Source: Terriglobia bacterium
GTDB lineage: Bacteria > Acidobacteriota > Terriglobia > Acidiferrales > UBA7541
Reading direction: 5' to 3'
DNA: 64,000 nucleotides
Assembly: GCA_020072785.1 (NCBI GenBank)
Contig: JAIQGG010000002.1
Coordinates: forward strand, 124,001-188,000
In this document: positions 2,490 through 63,860 of the stretch, in pieces
Layout of the letters: every line of letters begins with the position of its first letter
Position numbering within the stretch: the first letter of the stretch is position 1
Notes under the pieces: model-generated
Told to the model about the DNA's origin: nothing
What the model saw: the letters and a program-made list of their open reading frames with translations, nothing else
The model's database searches: none
Program-made: the position numbers and the translations under genes

Positions 2490-3890
2490 TCAGTGGCTGA
2501 CGGGGGCGCTGCTGGCTGCCGCCACGGGCAGCTTGCAGGTGGTCCAGGCGCTGAAGCCGCCTGCGATGTTGATAATGTTCTGGAAGCCGGCGCGGCGCAG
2601 GAGGCTGGCGGCGATGGCGCTGCGGTATCCGCCCTGGCACTGCACGGCGAGAGGGCGGCTGCGGTCGAGGCCGTCGAAGTCCTTTTCCAGATTGTTCAGC
2701 GGCTTGAGCATAGCGCCGGCGATGTGGCCCGAATCCCACTCGCCCTGGCGGCGCACATCGAGCAGCTGCAAACCTTCAGCGCCGCGCATGCGCTGGTGGA
2801 GTTCCTCGACGGTGATCTCCGGAATGCTCTCCAGGGGAAGGCCGGCTTTTTGCCAGGCCAGGATGCCGCCCTCCAGGTAGCCTTCGAGCTTCTCGATGCC
2901 CACGCGTGCCAGGCGCATGCGGGTTTCCTCCACGGCGGCGGAATCTTCCGCGACGAGGAGCAGGCGGGCATCTACACCAAGCAGAGCGCCGGCCCAGGAA
3001 GCGAATTGGCCGCCCAAGGCGATCTGCACGGAACCCGGAATGTGGGCAGGGAGGTATTTTGCTGCAGGACGGGTGTCCAGCACGATCAGCCCTTCGCTGC
3101 GCTGGGCTTCGAATGCGGCGGGCGAGAGGCCGAGCAGCGGCGGGAGATCGGAGAGCGCGGGCGCGCCGCTGCGATTGATGGCGGCGTCGCGCAGGAAGTA
3201 GCCGGGGCGCTCGGGAAGATCATCGGTGAGCAGGCGGACGAACTCGTCTTTGCTGGCGGCGCGCAGGGCATAGTTCAGAGTGCGTTGCGTGCCGATGGTG
3301 GAAGAGAGGTCCGTGCTCATCTGGCGTCCGCAGAGGGAGCCGGCGCCATGCGCGGGATAGACGAGAACGTCGTCGGGAAGGGTCAAGAGTTTGGAGTGCA
3401 GGCTGTCGTAGAGCAGCGCCGCCAGCTGCTGGGGAGTGTGGTTCGGGGAGAGGTCGGGCCTGCCGACGTCGCCGATGAAAAGGGTGTCTCCGGTCAGAGC
3501 CGCCCACGGCTTTTCGGAGCGGTCCAGATCGGTGACCACAATGCAGACGCTCTCCGGGGTATGGCCGGGGGTCTCCAGAAAGCGCAGAACGACGCGGCCA
3601 AAACGGACTTCCTCGCCGTCCTTTACGGGAACGTGCGGAAAGGTCGCGCCGGCCTGCGCGCCCAGGTAGATCTGAGCGCCGGTGCGGCGCGCCAGTTCCA
3701 CATGGCCGGAGACAAAATCGGCGTGCAGGTGGGTCTCGATGATGTGCTGGATGCGGAGCCCGCGGCGGGCGGCCTCCTCGAGATAGATGTCGACGTCGCG
3801 TTGCGGGTCCACGATGGCGGCGATGCCCTCCGAGCCAACAAGGTAGGAGGCATGCGCAAGGCAGCTGAGATAGAACTGTTGAAATTCCAT
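2490..3890 (-). CDS. MBL-fold hydrolase with two rhodanese domains (persulfide dioxygenase-like)
   Basis: A 466-residue protein with an N-terminal metallo-beta-lactamase domain (about 1-250) carrying the metal ligand motif THLHADF at 53-59 and a further His at 63. Two rhodanese domains follow (about 265-355 and 375-460). The second has the active-site loop CQGGYRS with Cys418. The first lacks the catalytic cysteine (VAEDSAAV in its place), so it is probably structural. This architecture is typical of enzymes that oxidise or move persulfide sulfur. The ATG at 3890 was chosen because the frame upstream is only the shadow of the peroxiredoxin gene. It lies 23 bases downstream of that gene on the same strand, so the two probably form a sulfur/peroxide stress operon. 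Confidence 0.88.
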   Translation of the reverse strand: MEFQQFYLSCLAHASYLVGSEGIAAIVDPQRDVDIYLEEAARRGLRIQHIIETHLHADFVSGHVELARRTGAQIYLGAQAGATFPHVPVKDGEEVRFGRVVLRFLETPGHTPESVCIVVTDLDRSEKPWAALTGDTLFIGDVGRPDLSPNHTPQQLAALLYDSLHSKLLTLPDDVLVYPAHGAGSLCGRQMSTDLSSTIGTQRTLNYALRAASKDEFVRLLTDDLPERPGYFLRDAAINRSGAPALSDLPPLLGLSPAAFEAQRSEGLIVLDTRPAAKYLPAHIPGSVQIALGGQFASWAGALLGVDARLLLVAEDSAAVEETRMRLARVGIEKLEGYLEGGILAWQKAGLPLESIPEITVEELHQRMRGAEGLQLLDVRRQGEWDSGHIAGAMLKPLNNLEKDFDGLDRSRPLAVQCQGGYRSAIAASLLRRAGFQNIINIAGGFSAWTTCKLPVAAASSAPVSH

Positions 3891-22046: not shown

Positions 22047-23255
22047 ATGGACCTCATACGCATTTTTGACACTACCCTGCGCGACGGCGAGCAATCGCCT
22101 GGCTTTTCCATGAATGCCGAGGAGAAGGTGCGCATGGCGCGGCAGTTGGCCGCCCTGGGTGTGGACATCATCGAAGCCGGCTTCCCCATTGCCTCCAAGG
22201 GCGACCTGCAAGCGGTCCAGACCGTGGCGCGGGAGGTGCGCGGTGCGCGCATTGCCGCGCTGGCCCGGGCCAAGCAAGAGGACGTGGACGCGGCGCTGGA
22301 AGCGCTGGAACCCGCCGCGCATCCGCGCCTGCACGTATTCTTCGCCACCTCCGACCTCCATCTGCGGGCCAAGCTCAACGTGACCCGCGAGCAGGCCAGC
22401 GAAGCCATCGGGGCCATGATCCGCCGCGGCCGGCAGCGCGTCGGCGAAGTGGAATTTTCCGCCGAAGACGCCAGCCGCAGCGATCTCGGCTATCTCTGCC
22501 AGGTCTGCAAAGTGGCCGTGGAAGCCGGGGCCACCATCCTGAACCTCCCGGACACGGTAGGCTACGCCGTTCCCGAGGAATATGCGGCGATGTTCCGCCG
22601 CGTGCGCGAATATCTGGGCGACCCGCGGGGGGTCACCTTCAGCGCGCATTGCCACAACGACCTGGGCTTGGCGGTGGCCAATTCCCTGGCGGCGGTTCGC
22701 GCCGGCGCGCGGCAGATCGAATGCACCATCAACGGCATCGGCGAACGCGCCGGAAACGCCTCGCTGGAAGAGGTCGTGGTGGCCCTGGCGGTGCGCCAGG
22801 CCTCCTTCGGGCTGAAGACCAATGTACGCTTGGAGGAGTTGTTTACTTCCAGCCGCATGCTCTCGGAGATCACCGGGGTGCAGGTTCCGCCGAATAAGGC
22901 CGTGGTCGGCGCCAACGCCTTCGCCCACGAGGCCGGCATTCACCAGGACGGGATCATCAAGAATCCGCTGACCTACGAGATTATCTCGCCGGAAACGGTG
23001 GGCGTGCCGGCGCGCTCTCTGGTCCTTGGCAAGCATTCCGGGCGCAACGCCCTGCGCTTGAATTTGCGCGACCTGGGCTACGATCCCAGCGACACGGAGC
23101 TGGCCGAGTGCTACCGCCGGGTAACCACGCTGGCCGACCAGGCCAAGCAGCTGCGCCCGCGCGACCTCGTGGCCATTGCCCATGAAGTGATGCGCCGCAA
23201 GCCGGCGGGCATGGCCTCGGCCGCGACGGCTTCCCCGGCCCCGTCGGTGGCCTGA
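22047..23255 (+). CDS. leuA: 2-isopropylmalate synthase-type enzyme lacking the regulatory domain
   Basis: A 402-residue aldol-type synthase condensing acetyl-CoA with a 2-oxo acid. The catalytic TIM barrel is complete: DTTLRDGEQSPG at 9-20, GFP and EFSAEDASRSD, then FSAHCHNDLGLAVANSL and GIGERAGNASLEEV. The protein stops after the linker (about 400), whereas full LeuA is about 500-520 with a leucine-binding C-terminal domain, so it would be insensitive to leucine. Homocitrate or citramalate activity cannot be excluded by sequence alone. Its pairing with leuB favours the leucine pathway. A run of AGGGGGG before the ATG is the ribosome site. It is divergent from the LysR gene. Confidence 0.88.
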   Translation: MDLIRIFDTTLRDGEQSPGFSMNAEEKVRMARQLAALGVDIIEAGFPIASKGDLQAVQTVAREVRGARIAALARAKQEDVDAALEALEPAAHPRLHVFFATSDLHLRAKLNVTREQASEAIGAMIRRGRQRVGEVEFSAEDASRSDLGYLCQVCKVAVEAGATILNLPDTVGYAVPEEYAAMFRRVREYLGDPRGVTFSAHCHNDLGLAVANSLAAVRAGARQIECTINGIGERAGNASLEEVVVALAVRQASFGLKTNVRLEELFTSSRMLSEITGVQVPPNKAVVGANAFAHEAGIHQDGIIKNPLTYEIISPETVGVPARSLVLGKHSGRNALRLNLRDLGYDPSDTELAECYRRVTTLADQAKQLRPRDLVAIAHEVMRRKPAGMASAATASPAPSVA

Positions 23256-23476
23256 CGATCCTCCGCGCCCGCTCGGCGGGGCGCGCACGGCGGCGCTTGG
23301 CTGCGCCCCTTACCCGGGAGCATCATAGGAACGGACGCGCTCCGCAGCGGGGTGCCTGGGTAAGCCCCTAGCCGGGGCATGGGCATTGCGGCTCTGGATC
23401 CGAGCCATTTTCGTATGTGCCTGGCGCGCTGCGCACAGGACACGTTGCGGGCCCTGAGAGGGAGTTCACGGTGACC

Positions 23477-24586
23477 ATGCTGAAGAAGACGATCGTGCTG
23501 CTGCCGGGCGATGGAGTCGGCCCGGAAGTGATTCGCGCCGCGACCGCCATCCTGCGCGAGTGCGCCACGGAATTCGGCCACCAGTTCGATCTCCAGGAAT
23601 TTCCGCTCGGCGGCGCGGCCATTGACGCCACCGGAGAGCCGCTGCCCGCGGCCACGCTCGCAGCCTGCCGCAAGGCGGATGCGGTGCTGCTCGGCGCGGT
23701 CGGCGGCCCCAAGTGGGATGCGCGGCCCGTGGGCCAGCGCCCGGAGAGCGGCCTGCTCGGCATCCGCAAGGAGCTGGGCTTGTACGTCAACGTGCGCCCG
23801 GTGCGCCTGCGCGAGCCGCTGCGCGACATCTCCCCCTTGAAGCGCGAGCGCCTCGGCGAACTGGACCTGGAAATTGTCCGCGAGCTGGCCGGCGGCATGT
23901 ACTTTGGTGCGCGCGGCAACGAGCAGAGCGGCGGCGTCGAGCGCGCCTTCGACACCGAGAGCTATTCCACGCCGGAGATCGAGCGCATCGCCGTCTTCGC
24001 CTACAACCGCGCGGAGGGCCGCTCGCGCCGCCTCTGCTCGGTGGACAAGGCCAACGTGCTCACCAGCTCGCAGCTGTGGCGCCGCACCGTCACGGGGATG
24101 AGCCACCTCTATCCCTCGGTGCAGCTCGAGCATATGTACGTGGACAACGCCGCCATGCAATTGGTGCTGCGCCCCACGCAGTTCGATGTGATTTTGACCT
24201 CCAACATGTTCGGCGACATCCTGAGCGACGAATCCGCCGCGCTGGTCGGCTCCATCGGCCTGCTGCCTTCGGGCAGCTTCGGCACCGGCGCGCCGCTTTT
24301 CGAACCCATTCACGGCTCCGCGCCGCAGATCGCCGGCAAAGACCTGGCCAACCCCATCGGCACAATCTTGAGCGTCACTATGATGCTTCGCGACACTTTC
24401 GGCCTGGGCATTGAAGCCGACTGGGTCGAGCGCTCCCTGGACCGCGTCCTCACCGCGGGCTACCGCACCGGCGACATCGCCGAGCCCGGCTCCCGCGTCG
24501 TCGGCACCACCGCCTTCACCGAGCACCTCCGCCAGGAGATGCAGCTCACCCTCGGCCACGCCGAGCGCTACGGCTGGGGCGTTTAG
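23477..24586 (+). CDS. leuB: 3-isopropylmalate dehydrogenase
   Basis: A 369-residue NAD-dependent enzyme oxidising and decarboxylating 3-isopropylmalate in leucine synthesis. Typical features are LLPGDGVGPEV near the N-terminus, GAVGGPKWD, ELTGG-equivalent ELAGGMYFG, the metal/substrate segment NMFGDILSDESAAL and FEPIHGSAPQIAGKDLANPIGT. The ATG at 23477 follows a GAGGGAG ribosome site; a GTG two codons earlier is possible. It lies 220 bases after leuA on the same strand and is probably cotranscribed. leuC and leuD are not in the window. Confidence 0.95.
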   Translation: MLKKTIVLLPGDGVGPEVIRAATAILRECATEFGHQFDLQEFPLGGAAIDATGEPLPAATLAACRKADAVLLGAVGGPKWDARPVGQRPESGLLGIRKELGLYVNVRPVRLREPLRDISPLKRERLGELDLEIVRELAGGMYFGARGNEQSGGVERAFDTESYSTPEIERIAVFAYNRAEGRSRRLCSVDKANVLTSSQLWRRTVTGMSHLYPSVQLEHMYVDNAAMQLVLRPTQFDVILTSNMFGDILSDESAALVGSIGLLPSGSFGTGAPLFEPIHGSAPQIAGKDLANPIGTILSVTMMLRDTFGLGIEADWVERSLDRVLTAGYRTGDIAEPGSRVVGTTAFTEHLRQEMQLTLGHAERYGWGV

Positions 24587-24757: not shown

Positions 24758-27133
24758 ATGTTGCCATCTCACCTATCGCGAAGCACGGAACCCGCATCGG
24801 CCGCCGGCGGGCCGCTGGCCTATTGGCGGGTGGAGGGCTGTCTGCTCGAGCTGGGCGCGCTGCGTCCGGTCGGCTACGTTACCTGGAACGCGCAGAGCTT
24901 CTCCGAGCGCTGGGCCCGTCGCGCGGGCATGGCCGCCATGGCCCTGCTGCGCCCGCTGGTCTTTGCCGCCAGCCGCCAATGGGCCACGCGCTTTCTCTAT
25001 ATGCTGCTGCGCGGCGTCAGCCGCGACCGCCTGGACTCCCTCGGCGAAGAGTATTTTCAGTACGTGCTGAAGCCGCAGTTGCGCCAGGCCGCCGCCGCGG
25101 AACTTACCGAGGCCGTGCGCCGCGGGGAGCGCATCGCGCTGGTCAGCCAGGGCCTGGACCATATCATCCGCCCGCTGGCTCGGCATTTCGGCGTCGCTTG
25201 GCTCATCGCCAACCGCCTCGAATTCCGCGACGGCCACGCCACCGGCCGGCTCCTCGATCCGCTGGTCCTGCCGCGCGGCCCGCTCACCTGGCTCTCCAGC
25301 GGCTCGGCGAACGGCCGCATCGAGAAAGCGGCGTTGCTGCGCCAGCTCGGCGGCACCGGTGCCCCGGACTCGGCCGATGCCGCGTTGCAACCCGCGGCGC
25401 GCCCGAGCCCCAACGTGCAGCGCCCCGTCGTGCTCTTTGGCGCCGCCCCGCGCGTCCCGGAGCTGCGCGTGCGCGAGATGCTCGCCGGCAAGCACGTCCT
25501 GCTTATCGGCGTCACCGGCTTCATCGGCAAGGTCTGGCTGGTCAATCTCCTGGAAGACATCCCGCAGATCGGCAAGATCACCCTGCTGATCCGCCGCAAC
25601 CGCACCACCACTGCGCGGCGGCGCTTCGAAAAAATCGTGGAAGAGTCGCCGACCTTCGACACCCTCCAGGAACGCCATGGGCGCGGCCTGGCCGCCTTCC
25701 TGCAGCAGAAAGTGGAAGTGGTCGAAGGCGACGTCAGCGTCTCCGGGCTGGGCCTGGATGAATCCACGCGCGCGCGCCTTGGGAAATCGCTCGATCTCGT
25801 CGTCAACAGCGCCGGCCTCACCGATTTCAATCCCGACCTGCGCGACGCCCTCTCCTCTAACGTGGATTCCGCCGCGCACCTGCTCGAGTTCCTGCGCCAG
25901 TGCGATCACGCCGGGCTGATGCATCTCTCCACCTGCTACGTCATTGGCGCGCGCGACGGCCGCGTCACCGAGGAACTCCAGGAAAACTACAATCCCGCGC
26001 ACGACCCCGCATTTGACGCCGAGCGCGAGATCGCCTCCCTGCGCGAAACCATCCGCTGCGTCGAGGAGCGCGCCGAAAGCCCGGAACTTACCGCCGCGCT
26101 GCGCCGCCAGGCCCTCGGCCGCGGCGGCGACCCCGCGGACGTGCCGCAAGGCAAACTGGACGGCGTGCTCAAACGCAACCGCATCCGCTGGGCGCGCAAC
26201 CGCCTCACCCGCGTGGGCCTGCGCCGCGCCAGGCATCTCGGCTGGCCCAACACCTACACCTTCACCAAGAGTCTCGGCGAATCGCTTCTCGCGCGCCACG
26301 GGCGCGGCCTGGCCATCGCCGTCGTGCGCCCCTCCATCGTGGAGAGCTCCACGCGCTCGCCCTTCACCGGGTGGAACGAGGGCATCAACACTTCCGGCCC
26401 GCTCTCCTATCTGCTGGGCACCAACTTCCGCCAGCTCCCCTCCAACGAGCACAAGTGCCTCGACGTCATTCCCGTGGACATGGTCTGCCGCGGCATGACG
26501 CTCATCGCCGCCGCCGTCGTCAGCCGCTGCAACGCGCGCCTCTACCAGTTGGCCACCTCCGCCGTGAGTCCCTGCGACATGGGCCGCTCCATCGAATTAA
26601 CCGCTCTGGCGCACCGCAAGCACTACCGCACCCAGCCGGGCATGGAGCACTGGTTCAAGCGCAAGTTCGAAACCATCCCGGTCTCCAAGCTGCGCTACGA
26701 GCGCCTCTCCATCCCCATGCAGAAGGCGGTCGTCTCCCGCATCAACCGCCTCGCCGACTCCCTGGGCATGAAAAAGCCCCCGCTGGCCCGCCAGGAGCGC
26801 GACCTTATCCGCGCCGAAAAGCTGATCGAGCTCTACGAGCCGTTCATTCTCCACAACGAGCACGTTTTCGAGGCCGAGAACGCCCGCCTGCTCTCCGCCG
26901 TCCTTTCCCCGGAAGAACGCGAGCTCTTCGCGTTCGCTCCGGAAAACATTGACTGGTGGGACTACTGGATTAACATCCACATTCCGGCGCTGCGGCGCTG
27001 GTGCTATCCGCTCATGGAAGGGAGACCGCTCGAGGCGCGCGCCCCGCGGGAGCTCGACTGGCCGGGCGAAGCGGTGGGGGCGGCCGCGCCCGCCTCCGCG
27101 CCGCACTCCGATCCACTATGGCGATCTTCGTAA
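24758..27133 (+). CDS. Fatty acyl-CoA reductase with a degenerate N-terminal HAD domain
   Basis: About 791 residues. The N-terminal part (20-190) aligns with the layout of HAD-IB phosphatases, but the catalytic DxDGT is replaced by YWRVEG (22-27), so phosphatase activity is doubtful. A Pro-rich linker leads to a NAD-binding_4/FAR domain (about 245-640) with GVTGFIG (251-257) and the catalytic YxxxK at Tyr500-Lys504. A C-terminal 'sterile'-type region follows. Such enzymes reduce fatty acyl-CoA or acyl-ACP to the aldehyde or alcohol. It is the first gene of the lipid operon. The next gene starts inside its last codons (27118). The start is uncertain (TTG at 24686 is open upstream) and no clear ribosome site is visible. 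Confidence 0.8.
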
Positions 27134-28281
27134 CCGGCTCTACAGGCTATCTCGGCAGCTACATCGTTGCCGGGCTCTTCACCGGGCATCGCGAGCCCCT
27201 CAATCTCCTGGTGCGCGCCAAAACGCAGCAGGAGGCGCGCGAGCGCCTCTGGCAGTCGTTGCAGCTGCACTTCGCTTTTCCCGAATTCCAGGAGCACCTG
27301 CGCGGCCGCGTGCGCATCTTCCTCGGCGATCTCACCAGCGAACGCTTCGGCCTGAGCGGCGACGACTACCACGAGCTCGTGGACTCCACCGATTCGCTCA
27401 TCCATTGCGCCGCCTCGCTCAACCGCAAATCGGAAAAGCAGTGCCTCAACGTCAATCTTCGCGGCTCGCTGGAGGTCATCCAGCTCGCCCGCCGCGCTCA
27501 GGATCGCCACGGCCTGCGCCGCTACAGTCACGTCAGCACCGTGGCCGTCGCTGGGCGCCGCCAGAACGAAGTCGTCCAGGAAGACGCCTCCATTGACTGG
27601 GCCCGCTCCGACTATGATCCCTACGCGCGCACCAAGAAATTCTGCGAGCACATGGTCGCCCAGCTGCTCCCCGACGTGCCGCGCACCATCTTCCGCCCGG
27701 CCATCGTCCTCGGCGACAGCCGCCGTCCGGAAACCACGCAGTTCGACATGGTGCGCGCCTTCTCCGTCCTCGCTAGCCTTCCCGTGCTGCCGCTCCGCCC
27801 CGATGACCGGATCGACATTGTGCCCGCGGACTACGTCGGCAAGGCCATCGTCGCTATTCATCAGAAGGACCAGGCCGCGCACCGCATCTACCATCTGTCC
27901 TCCGGGACCGGCTCGCAGACCTGCCGCGAGCTCACCGACGCCCTGGCGCAGGCCGGCGGATGGCGCCGCCCGCTCTACTGGCCGGGACTCGGCGGGCCGT
28001 TTTCCTCCACCGTGAACTGGCTGGCGCGGCGCGGCGGTTCCCTGGGCCGCGGCGCGGCGCTGCTCCAGGTCTTCTGGCCGTATCTGGTGTGGAACACGGT
28101 CTTCGACAATTCCCGCGTCGTCGCCGAACTGGGCGAGGCCCCTGCGAAATTTTCCGCCTACGCCTATCCGCTCCTGAAATTCAGCCGCGAAAACCACTTC
28201 CGCTATCCGGCGCAGCCCTGGCCTGCCAGCGCCGCGGCCGATGCCGCCGCCAAAGGAGCGGCGGGGAGCGCCGCCGTATGA
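27118..28281 (+). CDS. NAD(P)-dependent thioester reductase/SDR-type protein
   Basis: A 387-residue extended short-chain reductase of the NAD-binding_4 group. The nucleotide loop GSTGYLG (6-12) and the catalytic Tyr169-x3-Lys173 (YARTK) are present, with [16 protein letters not shown] in the substrate-side region. It is a close functional relative of the FAR domain in the preceding gene, so the cluster has two reductases and could carry out aldehyde-then-alcohol reduction or reduce two different acyl chains. It begins 16 bases before the previous stop, and its own TGA overlaps the next ATG. The Pro/Ala-rich tail (about 370-387) is not conserved. Confidence 0.85.
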
Positions 28282-29720
28282 CCGATTTTCTCCTCGTTGC
28301 CTGGGTCAGCGCGCTGATCGAGATCACGCGCATCGGCTGGGTGTGCGGACTCGGCCGCCGCTGGACCCCCGGGGAAAAACTCAAGCTGCTCTTTGCCGGC
28401 TACAACGGCACGCGCAACACCGGCGCCGACGTCCGCGTGGAGGAGATGCTGCGCCAGGTGCGCCACGTACTTGGTGCCGAGCACGTGGACTTCAGCGTCA
28501 TGACCCAGAACTTCAAGCGCACGCGCGGTTATTTCGCGGGCACTCGCCAGGCGCATCTCCCCGACGTCTACCCGCCGTTTCTCTTCCGCGAGGTGCGCGC
28601 CAATCACGGAGTCATCGCCTGCGAAGGCTCGATGTTCAAGAGCAAGTTCGCCAACGCCCTCACCACCATGATGATCGGCTCCCTAGGCATCGCCTCCGCC
28701 GAGAACAAGCTTTCCGTGGGCTACGGCGCCGAAGCCGGCCACATGGATTCGCTCCTCGAGCGCATGTGCGCGCGCTACGTCCGCGATTCGCTGATCATCA
28801 CTCGCAATCCCGAATCGCAGACCCTTCTCAGCCGCCTGGGCGTTCCCACCGAGCTCGGTACGGACACCGCCTGGACTTTCGAACCGCACCCGCCCGAATA
28901 CGGCCGTCAGGCTCTCCGCGCAGCCGGCTGGGACGAGAAGACTCCGGTCCTCGTCCTGTGTCCCATCCACCCCTTCTGGTGGCCGGTGAAGGCTTCCATC
29001 GCCAAGTATCTGGCGCGCGTCACCACCGGCGCTTTCCAGGATAGCCAGTACCGCACCGTTTATTTCCACGAGTCCGGCGCCGCCGTGGACGCCAAGTACC
29101 GCCACTACATCTCCGCCTTCGCCCGTGCCACCGCGGCCTTCCGCGAGCGCCACAACGTTTTTCCCGTGCTGGTGGCCATGGAGCGGCTTGACGCCCGCGC
29201 CTGCCGCGACGTCGCCGCGCTGCTTCCCGGCACTCCGGTGCTCACCTCGGACGACTACGATATGTTCCAGCTCGTCAGCATCCTGCGCCAGTGCGCGCTG
29301 ATGGTCTCCTCGCGCTATCACGGCATCGTCACCTCCATGCCCGGGCTGGTCGCCTCTGCCGGCGTCACCATGGACGAGCGCATCCACAATCTCATGACCG
29401 AGCGCGGCCACCAGCACCTCCTCCTCACCGTGGATGACCCGGAGCTCGAGCCCAAGCTGCTGGCCGTCCTCGAGCGCCTGCATGCGGAGCAGGAGGCCGT
29501 GCGCGAGGGCATTGCGCGCACCGTCGTGCGCAACCTCAAGGTCATGGCGCGCATGGGCGTCTTCCTCGAGGATGCCGTCCGCCGCCAGTACCCCGAATTT
29601 CCGCTGCGCAGCGGCGTTCTCCGCTGGGAAGACTATCTCCCGCCGCTCAGCCCGAATCTGCGCGCGCTCGCCGCGCGCTACGAATCCGCTCCGGAGCTTG
29701 CGCGCGCCGCGCAATCCTGA
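28278..29720 (+). CDS. Polysaccharide pyruvyl transferase-family protein
   Basis: A 480-residue protein with the PF04230-type fold. The family landmarks [18 protein letters not shown] (about 37-54), [12 protein letters not shown], and the C-terminal [14 protein letters not shown] are clear. Enzymes of this family add pyruvyl ketals from PEP to sugars; some members instead modify other phospho- or glyco-compounds. Its position inside a lipid operon suggests modification of a glycolipid or lipid head group, which would be unusual. A hydrophobic N-terminus ([19 protein letters not shown]) may anchor it to the membrane. It is coupled by ATGA to the gene before and is followed after 5 bases by the ligase gene. 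Confidence 0.75.
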
Positions 29721-29725
29721 TTCCC

Positions 29726-31495
29726 ATGGCCAATTTTCTCGAAAACATCTTTGCGCAGCTCCAGCAGGCCGCGGACCGCGTGGTCCTGCAGGAGCTGCAA
29801 GCTGGAGGCATGGCTAGCGTGCGCGGTAGGGAACTTCTCGACCAGGTCCGCCACGCCCGCGCCTTTTTGCGCCGGGCTGGCCTCCAGCCCGGCGACTGCT
29901 GCGCCCTGCTCGGCCCCAACTCCATCCGTTGGATCGCACTGGACCTGGCGCTGATGGCCGAAGGCCTCGTGGTCATCCCGCTTTATGCGCGCCAGGCTCC
30001 CGCCGAGCTCGCCGCCATGCTCCAGGACGCCCAGCCGCGCTTCCTCTTCTGCAGCGACGCGCCGCTCGGGGAGAGCATCGCCGATCTGTGGCCGCCCAGT
30101 GGACCGCTCAGTGGACCACAAATTCCGCCGCGCGTGCTCTTCGAGGAGGTCTTGTGCGGGGACGCCGCCGGCGCGGCTGCAGCCATCCCCGATGCGCCCG
30201 TGGCTTTGCAGGATTCCGCGCTCCTGACCATCATCTACACCTCCGGCACCTCGGGCGAGGCCAAGGGCGTGTGCCTGAATCTGGGTAACGTCAATCACAT
30301 GCTCGGCTGCACCACCGCGCGGCTGAACCAGCTTATGGTTTCGGCATCCCGTCCCGACCGGGTCTTCCACTATTTGCCCTTCAATTTTGCCGGCTCGTGG
30401 ATACTGCTCCTCTCTTGCCTCGCGCGCGAGAGCCAGCTCACGCTCTCCACGGACCTCGCGCGCCTCGCGGACGACATGCGCCTCGCCGCCCCGGACTATT
30501 TCCTGAACGTGCCCACGCTGCTCGAGCGCGTGCGCCGTGGCGTCGAGGAGGCCATCGCCAGGCGCAGCAAGCCCATCCGCATGCTGTTTGCCCGGGCGCG
30601 CACCGCCTGGCAGCGCCAACACGCCGGACGCGGGCAGGCCTTCGACGGCGTGTGGTTCGATCTCGGCCGCATGCTCCTCTTTTCCAAAATCCGCGCGCGC
30701 TTCGGCCCCCACCTGCGCGCCATCATCTGCGGCTCCGCGCCCCTGGCCCCAGAGACCCAGCAGTTCTTCCACATGTTGGGCATCCCCGTCCTGCAGGTCT
30801 ACGGACTCACGGAAACCACGGCCATCTGCACCATGGACGATCCACGCCAGCCTCCCGAGCCCGGTTTCGTGGGTCCGGCCATCCCGGGGATCGAGATGAA
30901 GATCGGGGAACACGAGGAGATCCTCGTGCGCGGCCCGCACATCTTCCCCGGTTACTGGAAGCGCCCGGAAGAGACGGCCCGCGTGCTGCAGGACGGGTGG
31001 TTCCACACCGGCGACCAGGGTGAGGTCAACGTGCGCGGCAACTGGCGCATCGTCGGCCGCCTCAAAAACCTCATCATTCTCAATTCCGGCCACAATATCG
31101 CTCCCGAGCCCATCGAGGAGAAGCTGCAGCAGCTTCTCCCCGCCGCGCAGCAGGTGGTCCTGGTGGGCAACGGCCGTGGTTACCTGGGTGTGCTGGTCAG
31201 CGGCGCCGTGAAAGAATCCGCCGTCCAGGCCGCGCTCGGCGCCGTCAATCCGGGTTTGCCCCATTACCGCCAGCTGCGCGGCTTCCGCGTCCTCGGCGAA
31301 GCTTTTACCCCGGAAAATGGCTTGCTCACGGCCAACGGCAAGCTCCGCCGCGACGCCATCAACTCCCGCTTCGCTTCCGAAATCAATGCCATGTACGATG
31401 TCACGGCTGACCGCGAAGCGGTCGGCAAGCAAGGTGGCCGCGAAGCGGCCAACAAGCAGGGTGACCGCAAAGCGGTCAACAGGAAGCCGGCATGA
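29726..31495 (+). CDS. AMP-forming acyl-CoA/acyl-ACP ligase with a repeat-made tail
   Basis: A 589-residue ANL-superfamily enzyme that adenylates a fatty acid and loads it onto CoA or ACP. Core motifs are TIIYTSGTSGEAKG (about 169-182), VYGLTETTAI and GWFHTGDQGEV, followed by GRLKNLII at the hinge. The last 29 residues are unlike the family: they are three 9-residue copies (DREAVGKQG, GREAANKQG, DRKAVNRKP) encoded by the 27-bp tandem repeat at 31409-31478. That tail is basic and probably disordered. The stop overlaps the ATG of the enoyl-CoA hydratase gene (ATGA). Substrate chain length cannot be read from the sequence. Confidence 0.88.
   Translation: MANFLENIFAQLQQAADRVVLQELQAGGMASVRGRELLDQVRHARAFLRRAGLQPGDCCALLGPNSIRWIALDLALMAEGLVVIPLYARQAPAELAAMLQDAQPRFLFCSDAPLGESIADLWPPSGPLSGPQIPPRVLFEEVLCGDAAGAAAAIPDAPVALQDSALLTIIYTSGTSGEAKGVCLNLGNVNHMLGCTTARLNQLMVSASRPDRVFHYLPFNFAGSWILLLSCLARESQLTLSTDLARLADDMRLAAPDYFLNVPTLLERVRRGVEEAIARRSKPIRMLFARARTAWQRQHAGRGQAFDGVWFDLGRMLLFSKIRARFGPHLRAIICGSAPLAPETQQFFHMLGIPVLQVYGLTETTAICTMDDPRQPPEPGFVGPAIPGIEMKIGEHEEILVRGPHIFPGYWKRPEETARVLQDGWFHTGDQGEVNVRGNWRIVGRLKNLIILNSGHNIAPEPIEEKLQQLLPAAQQVVLVGNGRGYLGVLVSGAVKESAVQAALGAVNPGLPHYRQLRGFRVLGEAFTPENGLLTANGKLRRDAINSRFASEINAMYDVTADREAVGKQGGREAANKQGDRKAVNRKPA
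31409..31478. repeat. Three 27-bp tandem copies of the dispersed palindrome, inside coding sequence
   Basis: Palindromic units GACCGC-GAA-GCGGTC (31409-31423), GGCCGC-GAA-GCGGCC (31436-31450) and GACCGC-AAA-GCGGTC (31463-31477) repeat with an exact 27-base period. The frame is kept, so they add nine-residue repeats to the ligase C-terminus. The units are the reverse-loop form of the element seen at 16298 and 32669. Confidence 0.85.
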
Positions 31496-32295
31496 AATCC
31501 TTTACGGGCAAAACGCTGCGCTGGGAATGGCGCGAGGGCATCCTCGAACTGACGCTCGACCGCGAGCCCGCCAACGAGATCGGCTCGGAGATGCTCTCGG
31601 AACTGGAGAAATTTGCCGCCGCGCTCGAAGCGCTCTCTTCCGAAACCAGCGCGTGCATTATCTCCAGCGCGCGCAAGCACGGCTTTTCCGCGGGCGCCGA
31701 CCTGCGCGAGCTGTATCATGCCGCCGCTCCGCTTGCCGAAAAAGAGCGCCTGGCAGGCGTGCGCGATTTCCTCGAGCGCATCCACAAGGTTCTGAACGCC
31801 CTGGATGCCGCTCCGCTCGTGACCATCGCCGCGGTACACGGCGTCTGCTTCGGCGGGGGCCTCGAGCTGGCCCTGGCCTGCGACCTCATCGTTGCCGACA
31901 AGATGGCCCGTTTCGCCTTTCCCGAGCTGCGCCTCGGCCTGATCCCCGGCTTCGGCGGCATCCCCCGCCTCAAGCGCGACTTGGGCAACGCTTTCGTCCG
32001 CGATCTCCTGCTTACCGGCCGCAGCGTGAATGCCGCGCGCGCCCAGGCCGTGGGCCTCGTTGCGCAGCTCGCCGCCGAGGGCGAAGCGCTCCGCCTGGCG
32101 CGCTCCACCGCCGCGCAGGTCGCCAAGTTCGACGCCGGCGCGCGCATCGCCGCCAAGAAATTCATCAAGCCCATCCCCAGCGAAGAGCTGCGCCGTGAAA
32201 TCGATATCTTCTGTGAACTATTCATGCGCCCCGCAGTCATGGCCGGCCTCAAAAAATTCGTCGCGTCCACCGACGCCATGCCCTACCTGCCCTGA
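31492..32295 (+). CDS. Enoyl-CoA hydratase/isomerase family protein
   Basis: A 267-residue crotonase-fold enzyme. Oxyanion-hole segments are recognisable: SAGADLRELY and VHGVCFGGGLELALACDLIVA, then FAFPELRLGLIPGFGG with the catalytic acid position (FPEL, a Glu as in hydratases). The substrate in this cluster is unknown; it may act on an acyl-CoA or acyl-ACP intermediate feeding the reductases. It overlaps the preceding ligase stop by four bases and is followed by a 167-base gap. Length and motif order are typical. Confidence 0.87.
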   Translation: MKSFTGKTLRWEWREGILELTLDREPANEIGSEMLSELEKFAAALEALSSETSACIISSARKHGFSAGADLRELYHAAAPLAEKERLAGVRDFLERIHKVLNALDAAPLVTIAAVHGVCFGGGLELALACDLIVADKMARFAFPELRLGLIPGFGGIPRLKRDLGNAFVRDLLLTGRSVNAARAQAVGLVAQLAAEGEALRLARSTAAQVAKFDAGARIAAKKFIKPIPSEELRREIDIFCELFMRPAVMAGLKKFVASTDAMPYLP

Positions 32296-32462
32296 TCTCC
32301 GCCGCCCGCCACTTTACTGTTTGGGGCCCTGCTTGCCGCAAACCCCCGCGAACGTGGCATGGTTAGTAGTAACCCGGCCGCGACATTGCACTGTACGGAC
32401 AAGCATCCCCGGGAATCCCGGGACGCAAATCGCTCCCTTGTCCGCAGCAGGAAGGAGCCTTC

Positions 32463-34322
32463 ATGCGCCGTACCGTTCTTCGAGGAATCGCCGCGTTTCT
32501 CGTTTGCTTCTGCGGCGCGCACGCGGCTTCCGCGCAGCTCCCCGTGGCCTCCTTTCCTGCCCCCGCGCCGCAGTATGAAATCCGCGTCGAAAAGAGCGTA
32601 CGCGTGCCCATGCGCGACTCCGTGCTCCTCTCCACCGATCTCTATTTCCCGGTGACCGCGAACCCTGTTGACCGCTTCGCGGTCACAAAGATAAAGGATC
32701 GCTTCCCCGTCATCCTCATTCGCACTCCCTACGACAAAAACGCGGAATGGAACGTCGCCAACGCCCGGCGCTTTGCCGGGCAGGGCTACGTCGTCGCCGT
32801 GCAGGACGTGCGCGGGAAATATGAATCCGGAGGCAGTTTCACCGTTTCCGCCGCGGACACCGAGGACGGCACGGCTACTGTCGAGTGGCTGGCCGAACAG
32901 CCCTGGTCCTCCGGGAAGATCGGCACCACGGGCTGCTCCTATTCCGGCGAAAACCAGGTGGAGATGGCCAAGAACCGCAGCGTGCACCATCTGGCGATGA
33001 TCCCCCAGGCCGCCAGCGGCGCCCTGCAGTATTTCGGCGCGCGGCGCGGCGGCGCCTTCGAGCTGGCGGCGAGCGCGGACTGGTTTCTCTCGAACGGCGT
33101 AAAGGAGCGGCCGCGGGCAGCGCCCGGGGCGTCCCCTCCGGCCGGATTCACTCCGCCGAAAGTAGACTGGCCCGTGCTCTGGCGGAGCCTGCCGCTGAAG
33201 GGCCTGATGAGCCGCGCGGAAATGCCCGCGACAGACTGGGACGACTTCGTCGCGCACCCCGAGGGCGATCCCTGGTGGCGCACCCTCGGCTACGTCACCA
33301 GCGCGGACAAGTTCGATGTGCCCGCCCTGTTCGTGGATTCCTGGTACGACTACGGCGCGGGCGACACCTTCCGCCTCCTGGACCTGCTGCAGAAAAACAG
33401 CGAGAGCCAGCTCGCCCGCGACAATCAGTTCGTCGTCATCGCACCCACCACGCACTGCCGCTACGAGCAGGCCACGGAGCATACCGTGGTGGGTACGCGC
33501 GATCTCGGCGACGCGCGCTTCGATCTTTTCGGTCTCTATCTCGCCTGGTTCGACCACTGGCTCAAGGGCGCGGACAACGGCGTCCAGAAAATGCCCAAGG
33601 TGCAGCTCTTCGTCATGGGCAAGAATGAGTGGCGCGGCGAAAACGAGTGGCCTCTGGCCCGCACCCAGTTCATGCAGGTCTACCTGAGCAGCGAGGGGCA
33701 TGCCAACAGCCGCTTTGGCGACGGCGTTCTTTCCCTCGACCGCCCCGCGGAGGAAACTCCCGACCACTATGTCTACGATCCGCGCTCGCCCGTGCCCTCC
33801 ACCGGTGGACCGGACTGGGGCGCAGCCCTGGGCGACCTGAAATCCGGCGCCGTGGATCAGTCCGACGTCGAGATGCGCCAGGATGTCCTCGTTTACACCA
33901 CGCCGCTCCTCGAAAAGGGCGCCGAAGTGACCGGCCCGGTCGAGGTCGTCCTCTACGTCAGCTCGGACGCTCCGGACACGGACTTCACCGCCAAGCTCGT
34001 GGACGTCTATCCCGACGGCACCGCCTACAACGTGCAGGAAGGCATCCAGCGCGCGCGCTACCGCGAGGGCTACGACAAGCCGGCGTTCCTGAAGCCCGGC
34101 GAAACCTACGAGCTGCACATCAACCTCAACGCCACCAGCAATTACTTCGGCCCCGGCCACCGCATCCGCCTGGAAATCTCTTCCAGCAACTTTCCGCGCT
34201 TCGACCGCAACCTCAACACCGGCGGCGCCAACTTTGACGGAGCGGTCTGGCATGTGGCCCGCAACACCGTTTACCACTCCGGCTCCCACGTCTCCTATAT
34301 CCTCCTGCCGGTCATCCCCTGA
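32463..34322 (+). CDS. Secreted CocE/NonD-family (S15-type) hydrolase
   Basis: A 619-residue alpha/beta hydrolase of the X-Pro dipeptidyl-peptidase/cocaine-esterase group. A Sec signal peptide is evident (MRRTVLRGIAAFLVCFCGAHAASAQ). The nucleophile elbow GCSYSG (near residues 160-165) carries the catalytic Ser. The C-terminal jelly-roll region (about 430-619) is typical. The protein would act in the periplasm or outside the cell on an amide or ester. It has its own leader region after the hydratase gene and may be an insertion into the lipid cluster rather than a member. Residues about 67-75 (PVDRFAVTK) are encoded by the dispersed palindrome at 32669. Confidence 0.9.
   Translation: MRRTVLRGIAAFLVCFCGAHAASAQLPVASFPAPAPQYEIRVEKSVRVPMRDSVLLSTDLYFPVTANPVDRFAVTKIKDRFPVILIRTPYDKNAEWNVANARRFAGQGYVVAVQDVRGKYESGGSFTVSAADTEDGTATVEWLAEQPWSSGKIGTTGCSYSGENQVEMAKNRSVHHLAMIPQAASGALQYFGARRGGAFELAASADWFLSNGVKERPRAAPGASPPAGFTPPKVDWPVLWRSLPLKGLMSRAEMPATDWDDFVAHPEGDPWWRTLGYVTSADKFDVPALFVDSWYDYGAGDTFRLLDLLQKNSESQLARDNQFVVIAPTTHCRYEQATEHTVVGTRDLGDARFDLFGLYLAWFDHWLKGADNGVQKMPKVQLFVMGKNEWRGENEWPLARTQFMQVYLSSEGHANSRFGDGVLSLDRPAEETPDHYVYDPRSPVPSTGGPDWGAALGDLKSGAVDQSDVEMRQDVLVYTTPLLEKGAEVTGPVEVVLYVSSDAPDTDFTAKLVDVYPDGTAYNVQEGIQRARYREGYDKPAFLKPGETYELHINLNATSNYFGPGHRIRLEISSSNFPRFDRNLNTGGANFDGAVWHVARNTVYHSGSHVSYILLPVIP
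32669..32685. repeat. Dispersed palindrome inside the CocE-type hydrolase gene
   Basis: Same 17-base TGACCGC-TTC-GCGGTCA as at 16298-16314, here in frame and coding for residues within the mature hydrolase, just after an acidic/neutral strand near residue 68. Confidence 0.8.
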
Positions 34323-34409
34323 TGTGGCCCTGGCTGGGCCGCTGCACAGGCGGATTTTCCCCGCCACTTTCGCTTTTCCATCTCCCGCGGGGATGATAAA
34401 TTCATTGCT

Positions 34410-34652
34410 ATGCGTACACTGGAGCAGACCACGCAGGAAGTCCTCGCCCTGGCGGCTCAGCATTTCCACGTGCCCCTCGAGACGCTGGCGCCGAACGACG
34501 ACTTCTTCAAGAAGCTGGGCATTGACAGCCTGCAGGCCCTCGAGCTGCTCACCCGCCTCGAAAACCATTTCGGCATCGAGCTCCCCGACTACGAAGTGCA
34601 GGGCGTCAGCGATTTCCGCACCCTCGCTGACCGCATCCAGGCCCGCCTGTAA
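34410..34652 (+). CDS. Stand-alone acyl carrier protein
   Basis: An 80-residue ACP. The phosphopantetheine attachment Ser40 lies in [11 protein letters not shown], the standard motif. Helices flanking the site are visible and the length is normal. It is not the housekeeping FAS ACP by context: it sits directly before an acyl ligase, which starts on its stop codon (TAATG at 34650), so the ligase probably charges this ACP. A loose -10-like sequence (GATAAA, 34395-34400) lies 9 bases before the ATG, with no ribosome site, suggesting a leaderless or upstream-derived transcript. Confidence 0.9.
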
Positions 34653-36361
34653 TGCTGGACCTCACCAAGTATGAGTCGCTCGGCGCGGCTCTGCACGATG
34701 CCCTCGGCCGTTTTGCCGGGGAAGTCTGTCTGATCGAGGCGGACCGCGAGAAAGAGAAAGAGCGGCTCACCTACCGTGATTTCCAGCAGTGTGCGTTCCC
34801 GCTCGCCCGGGCCCTGCAGGACGCTGGTTTTGCCGCCGCCGCTCGCGCCTCGATTATCATGACCAATCAGTCTAAGTGGCTGATTTCCGCTGCGGCCATC
34901 TTCTTCCGCGGCGGCGTCCTGGTGCCCCTTGATTACAAGCTCACCCCCGCCGAGCACTGGCAGCTGCTGAAGCACTCCGGCGCCACGGTGCTGATCACCG
35001 AATACCCCATCTGGCGGCAGCTCTCCGCCGCGCCCGGCCGCGCCGAGTGCGCCGTGCGCACGATCCTCGTCAGCGAAGCACCGCCGAACGCGGACCTCGC
35101 CGGTGCGCAGCGCTGGGAGGAGTTCCGCGGCGCGGGCGAACCGGAGTTTCTCCTGCGCCAGCGCAGCGATGCGGCCTGCATCGTCTATTCCTCTGGCACG
35201 GGCGGGCAGCCCAAGGGCTGCGTGATGACCCACGAGAACTATCTCGCGCAGTGCGTCGCGCTCACCGCGCTCTATCCCTTCTGGCCCGGCGTGCGCTACC
35301 TGAGCATTCTCCCCACCAACCACGCCATCGACTTCATGGTCGGCTTCATCGGCCCTTTCACCTGCGGCGCCGCTGTCGTGCACCTGCGCACCCTCCGCCC
35401 CGAATACGTCCGCGAGGCTTTCCCGAAGTACAAAATCACCTATGTCAGCCTGGTGCCGCTGGTCCTGAAGAATCTGCAGAAGGGCCTGCAGGCGCGCTTT
35501 GCCGCGCTGCCACCGCTCAAGCGCCGGGTGCTCAACGCCATGATCGCCCTGAACAAGCTGCTTACGCGGGATCATCCGCGCCTCGCCCTCAGCCGCCTGC
35601 TGCTCAAGCAGGTGCATGCGGCGTTCGGCGGCGAGCTCCGCGCCATCATCGTTGGCGGCGCGTTCACCGAGCCGCAGACGTTGCAGTTCTTCTATGACCT
35701 GGGCATTCCCGTGGCCAACGGTTACGGCCTCACCGAGGCCTGCACGGCCATCACCGTGAACGACCTCCGGCCGTTCCGCGCAGACACCGTGGGCAAGCCG
35801 CTCCCCGGCATGGAAGTGCGCATCGTCAAGCCGGACGCCGAAGGCATCGGGGAAGTGGCCGTGCGCGGCCGCACCGTCATGTCCGGCTACCTCAACGAGC
35901 CGGAGCTGACGGCCGAAACCATCGTGGACGGCTGGTTGATGACCGGCGACCTCGGGCGGCTCGACGCCACCGGCCACCTGCAGCTTTTCGGCCGCAAGAA
36001 AAACATGATCGTCACCGAGGAAGGGAAGAACATCTACCCCGAGGACATCGAGAACGTCTTCGAGGGCCTCCCGGTCAGGGAGTTCTGTGTCTTTGCCGCC
36101 AACTACATCTGGCCGCGGCGCTCCCTGAGCGGCGAGCAGCTCGTCCTGGTGCTGCATCTCGAGCCCGGGCAGTCCTTCTCCCCCGAGCTGCAGTCCGAAA
36201 TCAATGCCCGCAACAGCCGCCTGCTCAATTACAAGCGCATCCACGGCGTGGTATTGTGGGCCGAGGATTTTCCCCGTACGGCCTCGTTGAAGATCAAACG
36301 CAATCTTCTCGCCGAGCGGATCGCGCAGCTGGACCGCGACGCCGCCATGCAGCCCCTGTGA
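34652..36361 (+). CDS. AMP-forming acyl-ACP/CoA ligase, second copy in the cluster
   Basis: A 569-residue ANL enzyme. The motif [17 protein letters not shown] (about 175-190), [11 protein letters not shown] and [15 protein letters not shown] are conserved, with FGRKKNMIV and the catalytic Lys in the hinge region (SLKIKRN near the C-terminus). It shares the fold but not close sequence with the ligase at 29726. Translational coupling to the ACP gene indicates an acyl-ACP synthetase role. It is followed after 29 bases by the lipid-kinase gene. The N-terminal [15 protein letters not shown] is in the normal position, so the ATG at 34652 is right. Confidence 0.9.
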
Positions 36362-36390
36362 GGAGTTTGCCGGCGCTTCGCGAAGGAACT

Positions 36391-37293
36391 GTGAAGGAAC
36401 ACTTTTTCGCCATCGTGAATCCCGCCGCCGGCGGCGGCCGCTCGGCCAAGCTGGCCGGCCCGGCGCTCGCGCGCCTGCGCGATGCCGGCGTGCGCGTGGA
36501 CGTCATCGCTTCGACCGGACCCGGGCATGCCATCGAGCTGGCCCACGAGGGCTACCGGCAGGGCTACCGCCAGTTCCTGGCGGTGGGCGGCGACGGCACG
36601 GCCCACGAAATCGTCAACGGCATCTTTGCCGCGGACCCTGCTCCCGACCGCGTAGCGCTGGCTTTCCTCCCGCTCGGCACGGGCAACTCCTTTCTCCGCG
36701 ATTTCTCCGAAAACGGCGCGGAGGCCGCCATGCAGGCGCTCCTCGCGGGCCGCACGCGCCGCTGCGATCTTCTCCGCCTCACGCACGCCACGGGCACGCT
36801 CTATTCCATCAATCTTCTGAGCGTGGGGTTCACCGCGGACGTGGGTGCGCTCGCCAACCGCCGCTTCAAGCGCCTCGGCGAGTTGGGCTATCTGCTCGGC
36901 GTCTTCGTGCGCGTCCTGCAGTTGCGCCGCCGCGCTTTCCCTTTGCGCTGCGACGCCGGCACCGAGTGGGACACGCGCCGCTGCCTGTTTCTCGCCTTCT
37001 GCAACAGCAAATTCACCGGCGGCACGATGCTCATCGCTCCCCAGGCCGACCCCACCGACGGCCTCATCGAGTACGTGCGCTGGGGGCCCATCGGCCGCTT
37101 CGGGCTGGTGCGCATGCTTCCCCGCCTCTATGACGGCACGCACATCCAGCACCCGCTGGCCTCGCGCCGCGCCGTGCGCCGCGTGGAATTCAATCTTCCC
37201 GCGCCCGTGGACGTTCTCGTGGACGGCGAAGTTTTCACCCTCGACTGCCATTCTCTGGATATTCTTCCCGCCGCCGTGGACGTTTACATATGA
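36391..37293 (+). CDS. Diacylglycerol/sphingosine-type lipid kinase (DAGK catalytic domain)
   Basis: A 300-residue lipid kinase that transfers phosphate from ATP to a lipid alcohol. The DAGK signatures NPAAGGGRSAK at the N-terminus, VGGDGTAHEIVNGI and LPLGTGNSF are all present in order, and the C-terminal VDVLVDGEVF closes the domain. Substrates of this family include diacylglycerol, ceramide/sphingoid bases and bactoprenol; the cluster suggests a glycerolipid or long-chain alcohol. The GTG at 36391 has GAAGGA close upstream; TTG at 36367 is possible. It overlaps the PlsC gene by ATGA at 37290. Confidence 0.88.
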   Translation: MKEHFFAIVNPAAGGGRSAKLAGPALARLRDAGVRVDVIASTGPGHAIELAHEGYRQGYRQFLAVGGDGTAHEIVNGIFAADPAPDRVALAFLPLGTGNSFLRDFSENGAEAAMQALLAGRTRRCDLLRLTHATGTLYSINLLSVGFTADVGALANRRFKRLGELGYLLGVFVRVLQLRRRAFPLRCDAGTEWDTRRCLFLAFCNSKFTGGTMLIAPQADPTDGLIEYVRWGPIGRFGLVRMLPRLYDGTHIQHPLASRRAVRRVEFNLPAPVDVLVDGEVFTLDCHSLDILPAAVDVYI

Positions 37294-38030
37294 GAAGCGC
37301 GTGGCCGGCCGTGCGCAGCGTGCTGTTGTGGCTGGTCAGCGGGCTGCATTTTTTCACCTTCGTTCCGGTCCTCATCCTGCTGGCCGCGGTGCTCGACCCG
37401 CGCAAGCATGACTGGCTGCAGCGCGGCCTCTGCCGCCGCATCGTCTTTCTGGCCGGCGCGAAACTTGTCGTGCACCGCGCCCCCGGCTTCGATCCCCAGC
37501 GCACCTCCTTCTTCATGGTCAATCACGTCAACCTCTTCGATCCCTTCGTGCTGTATAGCGCGCTGCCGCAATTCGTCCGCGGCTGGGAGCTGGAGTCGCA
37601 TTTCAAGATTCCCGTGTATGGCTGGCTGATGAAGCGCTTCGGCAACGTTCCCGTGCCGGACGTGCGCCGCCCCTCCGACCTCAAGCGCATGTGGCGGCTC
37701 ACGCAGGCGGCCATTGACGGCGGCACCAGCCTCATCGTCTTCCCGGAGGCCAAGCGCACCCGTGACGGCCGCCTCAGCGAATTTCAGGTCGGCGGTTTCC
37801 GCGTCGTGCAGCAGCTCGGCGTACCCGTCGTTCCCGTCACCGTGGTCGGCTCGTTCGAACACCATCGCACCGGCGACTGGATGCTCCGCCCCGCCACCAT
37901 CACCGTCTACATTCACGACACCATTGAGACCACAGGCCTCACCAAGGACGATGTTCCCGCGCTGCGCGACCGCGTCCGCGCGGTCATCGCCGCCCCGCTG
38001 GAGGAATGGTTGAAAAAAACGAGAGGGTAG
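37290..38030 (+). CDS. 1-acylglycerol-3-phosphate acyltransferase family protein (PlsC-like)
   Basis: A 246-residue membrane-associated acyltransferase. The catalytic HX4D motif appears as NHVNLFDPF and the glycerophosphate-binding motif as FPEAKRTRDGRL; both are slightly unlike the housekeeping NHxxxxD/FPEGTRS, so another acceptor is possible. A membrane segment lies near the N-terminus (WLVSGLHFFTFVPVLILLAAVL). The start codon overlaps the kinase stop. It is the last gene of the lipid operon; a CDP-alcohol phosphatidyltransferase gene faces it 37 bases further on. Confidence 0.87.
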   Translation: MRSAWPAVRSVLLWLVSGLHFFTFVPVLILLAAVLDPRKHDWLQRGLCRRIVFLAGAKLVVHRAPGFDPQRTSFFMVNHVNLFDPFVLYSALPQFVRGWELESHFKIPVYGWLMKRFGNVPVPDVRRPSDLKRMWRLTQAAIDGGTSLIVFPEAKRTRDGRLSEFQVGGFRVVQQLGVPVVPVTVVGSFEHHRTGDWMLRPATITVYIHDTIETTGLTKDDVPALRDRVRAVIAAPLEEWLKKTRG

Positions 38031-38067
38031 GGGCGGGCCTTCGGTTGCCCGTTTCAGCGATTGCCGC

Positions 38068-38685
38068 TCAGAGGCTCAGCTTGATCCCGGGCAGGGTGCG
38101 CCCGGCGCGCGTTTCCTGCCACGTGAAGACGATCCGGTGGATCACCGTGATCGTCGACACCACTGCAATTACCCACAGCACCGGCCCCATGCGGTTGAAC
38201 ATCCCCCCGATGATCAGCAGCACCAGCCGCTCCGGCCGCTCCATGAAGCCCGCCTTGCACAGCGGGATCAGCGATTCCGCGCGCGCCCGCGCGTAGCTCA
38301 CCATCACCGAACCCGCCGTTGCCACTGCCGCCAGCGCCACGTAGGGCGTCCGCCCGCTCACCGAATAATAGACCAGCAGCCCCATGTACAGCGCCATGTC
38401 CGCGTAGCGGTCCAGCGTCGAGTCGTAGAACGCCCCGAAGGCCGTCACCCGGTTCTGCCGCCGCGCCACCTGCCCGTCCAGCATGTCCAGGAAGCCCGCG
38501 AAGAAAATGATGATCGCCCCGGTGCGAAAGCGCCCCGTGGCGAACATCGCCGCCGCTCCGAAATTCACCACCAGCCCGAGGAAGGTCAGGAAGTTGGGGT
38601 TGATCCCGGTCGCCGCCAGCGCCCCCACAATCTTGTCGAGCAGCCATTTGCTGCCGGTGCCGATCGCTCCTGTGAACGTAGCCAT
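38068..38685 (-). CDS. CDP-alcohol phosphatidyltransferase
   Basis: A 205-residue membrane enzyme that joins a CDP-activated lipid to an alcohol head group. The full catalytic motif DG-x2-AR-x8-G-x3-D-x3-D is present (DGQVARRQ through STLD, about 68-90) on the second of about six helices. The head-group alcohol cannot be read; PgsA (glycerol phosphate) and inositol-phosphate types both fit the length. The ATG at 38685 is used because the upstream extension is not conserved. It converges on the PlsC gene, so it is near the cluster but on the opposite strand; a functional link is likely but unproven. Confidence 0.87.
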   Translation of the reverse strand: MATFTGAIGTGSKWLLDKIVGALAATGINPNFLTFLGLVVNFGAAAMFATGRFRTGAIIIFFAGFLDMLDGQVARRQNRVTAFGAFYDSTLDRYADMALYMGLLVYYSVSGRTPYVALAAVATAGSVMVSYARARAESLIPLCKAGFMERPERLVLLIIGGMFNRMGPVLWVIAVVSTITVIHRIVFTWQETRAGRTLPGIKLSL

Positions 38686-60667: not shown

Positions 60668-60827
60668 GTCTCAACCCCTAGCTCGATACTCGTCTTCTCA
60701 GCGCCTGATCCGCAGTCAGCGTTTGCTTGGGTGGGGCAGAGGATGCACGCTGCGGAATGGATTGCTTGGTGGGCACGGGCGGAGTATATCAGTCGAGCAA
60801 GGCGTTTTGCAGACAGGAGACGGGGTG

Positions 60828-60854
60828 CCTGCCGACTCATCAAGGGGTTGTCAC
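60828..60854. repeat. Right copy of a 27-base direct repeat flanking the helicase gene
   Basis: Matches 57764-57790 in 24 of 27 bases, in direct orientation, so the pair brackets the helicase gene and about 3.1 kb of DNA. Confidence 0.6.
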
Positions 60855-61462: not shown

Positions 61463-61499
61463 AATCATTTTTCTATTCCGACAGGCGGCCGAGTGGCAC

Positions 61500-63840: not shown

Positions 63841-63860
63841 CTTGTTTTGGCCAATTCTCC

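Follow-up and report, generated by a model that had tools for sequence, protein, structure and literature searches.

Do the closely packed lipid genes of an acidobacterial locus form one pathway, and which lipid would such a pathway make? We addressed this question for positions 24758 to 38685 of a 64,000-nt stretch of Terriglobia bacterium DNA (assembly GCA_020072785.1, contig JAIQGG010000002.1, positions 124,001 to 188,000), hereafter the window (G000:C2:124001-188000, where G000 is the window genome). Ether-lipid synthesis in Acidobacteria without an elb operon is an open question (PMC10087280, PMC11868695), and acidobacterial ether lipids matter because related tetraethers serve as climate proxies. 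A sequence-only reading of the window had proposed a lipid-modification locus of unusual composition. We find that the locus is indeed a dedicated, co-inherited pathway and not a scatter of fatty-acid-degradation genes, and it offers a defined set of nine genes for testing. An alkyl (ether) glycerophospholipid is the most likely class of product, which we favour with modest confidence.

Two co-inherited modules and a hydratase

The system consists of a module A, a module B and a hydratase, all encoded on the forward strand. Module A comprises HAD-FAR, an ElbB-like pseudo-HAD domain fused to a fatty-acyl reductase (FAR) (24758..27133; partial PF12710, PF07993 (NAD_binding_4) at 5e-53, and PF03015 (Sterile)); SDR2, a thioester-reductase-type SDR (27118..28281; PF07993 at 1.5e-44, and TIGR01746 at 1e-37, under its cut-off); PyvT, a pyruvyltransferase-family protein (28278..29720); and LigA, an AMP-dependent acyl ligase (29726..31495; PF00501, 1.5e-57). 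It is followed by ECH, a crotonase-family hydratase (31492..32295; PF00378, 5.7e-40). Module B comprises a stand-alone acyl carrier protein (ACP; 34410..34652; PF00550, 1e-14); LigB, an acyl ligase that is probably ACP-loading (34652..36361; PF00501, 2e-66); DGK, a YegS/DGK-type lipid kinase (36391..37293; PF00781, PF19279); and a PlsC-type acyltransferase (37290..38030; PF01553, 1.6e-16). All of the start/stop overlaps claimed by the sequence-only reading are present when measured: 16 nt between HAD-FAR and SDR2 (27118-27133), 4 nt between SDR2 and PyvT (28278), LigA and ECH (31492), and DGK and PlsC (37290), and 1 nt between ACP and LigB (34652). The ATG at 24758 is one choice of start for HAD-FAR, and an in-frame TTG also lies at 24686.

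The gene order recurs in about 25 acidobacterial loci, with protein identities mostly of 52-96%, and the loci nearest to the window come from Terriglobia and Acidobacteria metagenome-assembled genomes. In tblastn comparisons of related loci, the order HADFAR-SDR2-PyvT-LigA-ECH-(S15)-ACP-LigB-DGK-PlsC-(CDP-alcohol, minus strand) is found at 54-96% identity, with one ACP at 100%. The same genes are present in 11 loci from a phylum survey, in some of them in a changed order. Where the cluster is broken, it splits alike into HADFAR-SDR2-PyvT-LigA and ACP-LigB-DGK-PlsC (in genomes G377, G132, G062 and G389, and divergently in G323), and the modules co-occur even where they are unlinked. Among the 396 genomes of the survey, PyvT (counted at an identity of at least 62%) is present in 13 and the HAD-FAR fusion in 12, with both in 12 (Fisher p=5e-22, uncorrected for shared descent), and the PyvT carriers span six families and twelve genera. 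In the thirteenth carrier, G389, LigA, PyvT and SDR2 lie on a 5.7-kb contig that ends past SDR2, and the rest of that assembly yielded no reductase.

The genes outside module A follow the same pattern. LigB is 68-71% identical in all six tested genomes in which module B is detached or divergent; in ten genomes with ElbD or a stand-alone FAR, its identity is at most 35% over the full length and 42-43% over short segments. An ECH orthologue of 60-70% identity occurs in 12 of the 12 other carriers, and 12 control genomes reach at most 44%. PlsC is the least constant part, and it was not found beside DGK in loci L077 and L083. In a ligase tree that carries long-branch warnings, LigA and LigB form two cluster-specific clades, that of LigA on a long stem of its own. 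The sequence-only reading had raised two doubts about itself, namely that homologues might be scattered without a conserved neighbourhood and that the ligases and reductases might be paralogues from fatty-acid degradation; what we found instead are co-inherited gene sets and ligases in clades of their own. The ligase and hydratase families are large, which would favour ordinary paralogues from fatty-acid degradation that are neighbours by chance, but this explanation is effectively refuted by the cluster-specific clades, the common order and the co-inheritance of unlinked modules, and we regard it as highly improbable.

Partial kinship with Elb ether-lipid loci

The elb operon of Myxococcus xanthus encodes an NAD-epimerase, a HAD protein, a protein of unknown function, ElbD (a fusion of FAR, acyl-CoA synthetase (ACS), ACP and acyltransferase (AT) domains) and a second NAD-epimerase, and loss of elbD strongly lowers ether lipids (PMC9131029). 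Our comparison was made with the acidobacterial loci L045, L046 and L052, taken as elb operons from their gene order and domains; they encode a HAD protein, a LarA-like protein, ElbD (1457-1475 aa) and an SDR in that order, and a domain search identified the FAR-ACS-ACP-AT fusion in the L045 ElbD. The FAR domain of the window is 35-39% identical to ElbD-type proteins of 1450-1550 aa. In a midpoint-rooted tree, which leaves the direction of change unsure, a single clade (100/99) unites the HAD-FAR fusions and lies beside or among the acidobacterial ElbD and stand-alone FAR domains. This grouping of the reductase with ElbD-type domains indicates that the kinship with Elb loci is real but partial.

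The FAR domain has a nucleotide-binding fold and the invariant SDR catalytic residues Tyr500/Lys504. Among solved structures, rice DPW (7eoz), which acts on acyl-ACP, is closest to it in both sequence and fold; the HAD-FAR model is weaker than that of PyvT, with a mean predicted local distance difference test (pLDDT) score of 73.5. The fused HAD domain retains the ElbB-like stretches NRLEF and ATGR. However, its motif I is WRVEGSL-like (WRVEGCL in the window), versus YDLEGTL in ElbB-like relatives: every compared fusion that extends this far has Arg instead of the nucleophilic Asp. Motif IV is lost. We therefore rejected the HAD domain as an active phosphatase; judged by these residues, it is very probably inactive.

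Both kinds of locus share homologous FAR and HAD domains and the ligase, ACP and PlsC functions, and a lipid kinase often adjoins Elb loci too, as DGK does at several ElbD-type loci. Unlike Elb loci, the window locus lacks the FAR-ACS-ACP-AT fusion and carries those domains on four separate genes, its HAD is fused to FAR and has lost the catalytic Asp, it has neither the LarA-like ElbC nor ElbE, and it adds PyvT, LigA, ECH and a thioester-reductase-type SDR. No ElbC was found in the locus, and a search made without a positive control gave no match in the window genome. SDR2 was rejected as an ElbE counterpart: only 29 of its residues align with the L045 ElbE (E=0.003), and SDR2 is of the thioester-reductase type, with all eight of its PDB matches being reductase domains, either from megasynthases or from carboxylic acid reductases (the best being MxaA, 4u7w). 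The likeness to Elb, with separate proteins and a pyruvyltransferase, that the sequence-only reading pointed out thus stands for the reductase, which groups among ElbD domains, and falls for the degenerate HAD and the absent ElbC and ElbE.

These likenesses raise the alternative that the locus makes ether lipids by the chemistry of ElbD, while PyvT adds a pyruvate ketal to the head group or glycerol and LigA, ECH and SDR2 tailor the chain. The grouping of FAR with ElbD, the ElbB-like HAD and the presence of ACS, ACP and PlsC functions in the locus all fit this explanation, and the family of PyvT is known for ketal transfer (PMC10435577). It is weakened by the missing ElbC and ElbE counterparts, by the lack of any glycosyltransferase or sugar-handling gene within the locus and by the absence of a clear step for ECH; moreover, the ligase tree, with its long-branch warnings, does not resolve the placement of LigB relative to the ElbD ligase. 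We consider this alternative rather unlikely. A split of ElbD as the origin of LigB, ACP and PlsC was dropped on account of the same tree, and the best genome match of the ElbD ligase region is another ACS-ACP-PlsC protein. The window genome itself encodes two such ACS-ACP-PlsC proteins, which resemble ElbD but lack a reductase domain (L107 and L108; G000:C3 ~177225-179978 and G000:C1 ~486-3077).

The comparison also yielded two observations on Elb loci themselves. Acidobacterial ElbC (L045, 9956-11554 on the minus strand; also L046, L049 and L052) is LarA-like, and the L045 copy scores over the curated cut-off of NF052592, the nickel-pincer hydroxyacid isomerase family; this suggests that Elb chemistry includes a hydroxyacid step. 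Loci L048, L049 and L051 show a further architecture, in which a stand-alone FAR occurs with HAD and DGK and with no ligase, ACP or PlsC beside them, and L049 also has a LarA-like protein, an SDR and a PlsY-type gene.

PyvT and a possible route from phosphoenolpyruvate

PyvT scores 34 bits against PF04230 (PS_pyruv_trans; curated cut-off 25.3). Its model (mean pLDDT 83) matches GT-B folds, UDP-GlcNAc 2-epimerases first, with modest TM-scores, and searching PDB sequences with a profile of PyvT returned a chance match only. The residues R176, R346-x-H348 and R368 are invariant in 19 of 19 sequences and correspond, when matched by motif without an alignment to CsaB, to R148, R306, H308 and K328 of CsaB. 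The latter residues have been tied to phosphoenolpyruvate (PEP) binding by docking, and three of them also by mutation (PMC10435577). PyvT thus resembles the ketal-pyruvyltransferases CsaB and Pvg1p in its PF04230 domain, its GT-B type fold and its PEP-site motif residues, and differs from them in forming a 480-aa subfamily of its own and in its lipid instead of sugar context. A second pyruvyltransferase, 38% identical, lies outside such clusters in genome G062 (L105, 9497-10819), beside a gene that appears patatin-like by eye.

Besides the genes, their families and their co-inheritance, we observed that the active sites are conserved. Both glutamates of ECH, in GGxELAL and FPELRLG, and the GGDGT motif of the lipid kinase are invariant, and the ACP attachment motif IdSLq, with its serine, and the NHxxxxD motif of PlsC are kept. 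The lipid kinase and PlsC in module B indicate a glycerophospholipid product. The product might also be an ester-linked or head-group-modified glycerolipid whose acyl chain is modified before PlsC acts, as LigB, ACP, DGK and PlsC make up a complete acylation module; the FAR that heads every module A, however, removes the carboxyl group needed for an ester, and we hold such a product to be quite improbable.

The sequence-only reading had the fatty alcohol attached to glycerophosphate, a route that leaves PyvT, LigA, ECH and SDR2 without a job. We propose instead that PEP may supply the glycerol backbone, which would be assembled around the ether bond, and we infer each reaction, the order of the reactions and the product as follows. 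LigB would load a fatty acid onto ACP, and FAR would make the fatty alcohol, the dead HAD perhaps being retained as a scaffold. A lipid-specialised PyvT would join the alcohol oxygen to C2 of PEP, yielding 2-alkoxyacrylate, which LigA would convert to its CoA thioester. ECH would hydrate the double bond to give 2-alkoxy-3-hydroxypropanoyl-CoA, as crotonases do with methacrylyl-CoA, and SDR2 would reduce the thioester to 2-O-alkylglycerol. The lipid kinase would then phosphorylate this product, and PlsC would add an acyl chain from acyl-ACP supplied by LigB and ACP. As the ether bond would come from PEP, neither AGPS, dihydroxyacetone phosphate nor an ester reductase would be needed. This route is balanced and gives every conserved gene a step, and 2-O-monoalkylglycerols are known lipids of other bacteria (PMC5552659). 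A literature search, mostly outside subscription papers, found no description of a PEP-derived glycerol ether route or of a similar cluster, and a search for pyruvylated glycerolipids found nothing relevant; if true, the route would form the bond of glycerol ethers in a manner so far undescribed.

Several points weigh against the PEP route. It was composed after the gene list had been seen and was fitted to it, it leaves the HAD domain without an explained role, and we know of no lipid from any carrier. PyvT falls far under the curated cut-off for CsaB (TIGR03609), and the products of characterised PS_pyruv_trans enzymes are cyclic ketals of sugars and not enol ethers of fatty alcohols. Acidobacterial monoethers are reported as 1-O (PMC10087280), versus the predicted sn-2 (2-O) position. 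In addition, the window genome encodes two Ger/PlsA-like proteins, each with BcrAD_BadFG in two stretches plus DUF2229, an architecture discussed for Ger/PlsA (PMC13274423). We regard the PEP-derived route as possible but doubtful. The joint claim, of a dedicated alkyl-ether glycerophospholipid pathway that is kin to Elb yet distinct and works by the proposed mechanism, is put forward tentatively.

Other ether-lipid enzymes and neighbouring genes

Given the two Ger/PlsA-like proteins, other ether routes are possible in the window genome, and the locus is not necessarily its route to ethers. Ger/PlsA ester-to-ether reductases would share a product class with the locus if the ether reading is right, and their proteins are unrelated to those of the locus, in which a Pfam search found no BadF/BadG activase or DUF2229 domain. 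They also bear on the alternative that the locus makes a modified fatty alcohol, an aldehyde or another secondary lipid without an ether bond: other candidate ether enzymes are at hand, no ether lipid has been observed, and FAR, the ligases and ACP would be enough for fatty alcohols. The lipid kinase and PlsC nevertheless travel with module B, and we consider a product without an ether bond unlikely. The AGPS route has a fatty alcohol as its alkyl donor, as does the route proposed for the locus. AGPS was rejected for this genome: the FAD-oxidase_C genes found in it are two neighbours that, read from their arrangement, resemble glycolate oxidase GlcD/GlcE, and the locus holds no AGPS candidate. 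A search of the genome for CarF gave no match, but neither did its control, so that it carries no weight.

The sequence-only reading counted ten genes on one strand and a convergent eleventh, and all of them were found in place, but its list names nine of the ten and omits an S15/CocE-type hydrolase (32463..34322, + strand; PF02129, PF08530). This hydrolase has an apparent signal peptide, breaks the tight gene spacing with gaps of 167 and 87 nt, and is present only in L031 and L040 among the compared loci; it was rejected as a core gene and is a local insertion. The convergent gene encodes a PIP-synthase-like CDP-alcohol phosphatidyltransferase (38068..38685, - strand; PF01066; NF040950 at 165.9 versus a cut-off of 180). 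It adjoins the cluster in six loci, all of them closer relatives, and was likewise rejected as a core gene because it is not conserved with the cluster.

Directly upstream of the locus lie leuA and leuB (window 22047-24586), whose position is kept in six close relatives; seen in these relatives only, they were rejected as part of the system. Iso-branched fatty acids are fed by leucine synthesis, and the link of these genes to the locus may or may not be meaningful. At the far end of the window (58000-64000), the G+C content drops from ~0.64 to 0.53-0.57, and a UvrD-like helicase open reading frame (57878-60667) was noted there by eye; this stretch is possibly an acquired segment.

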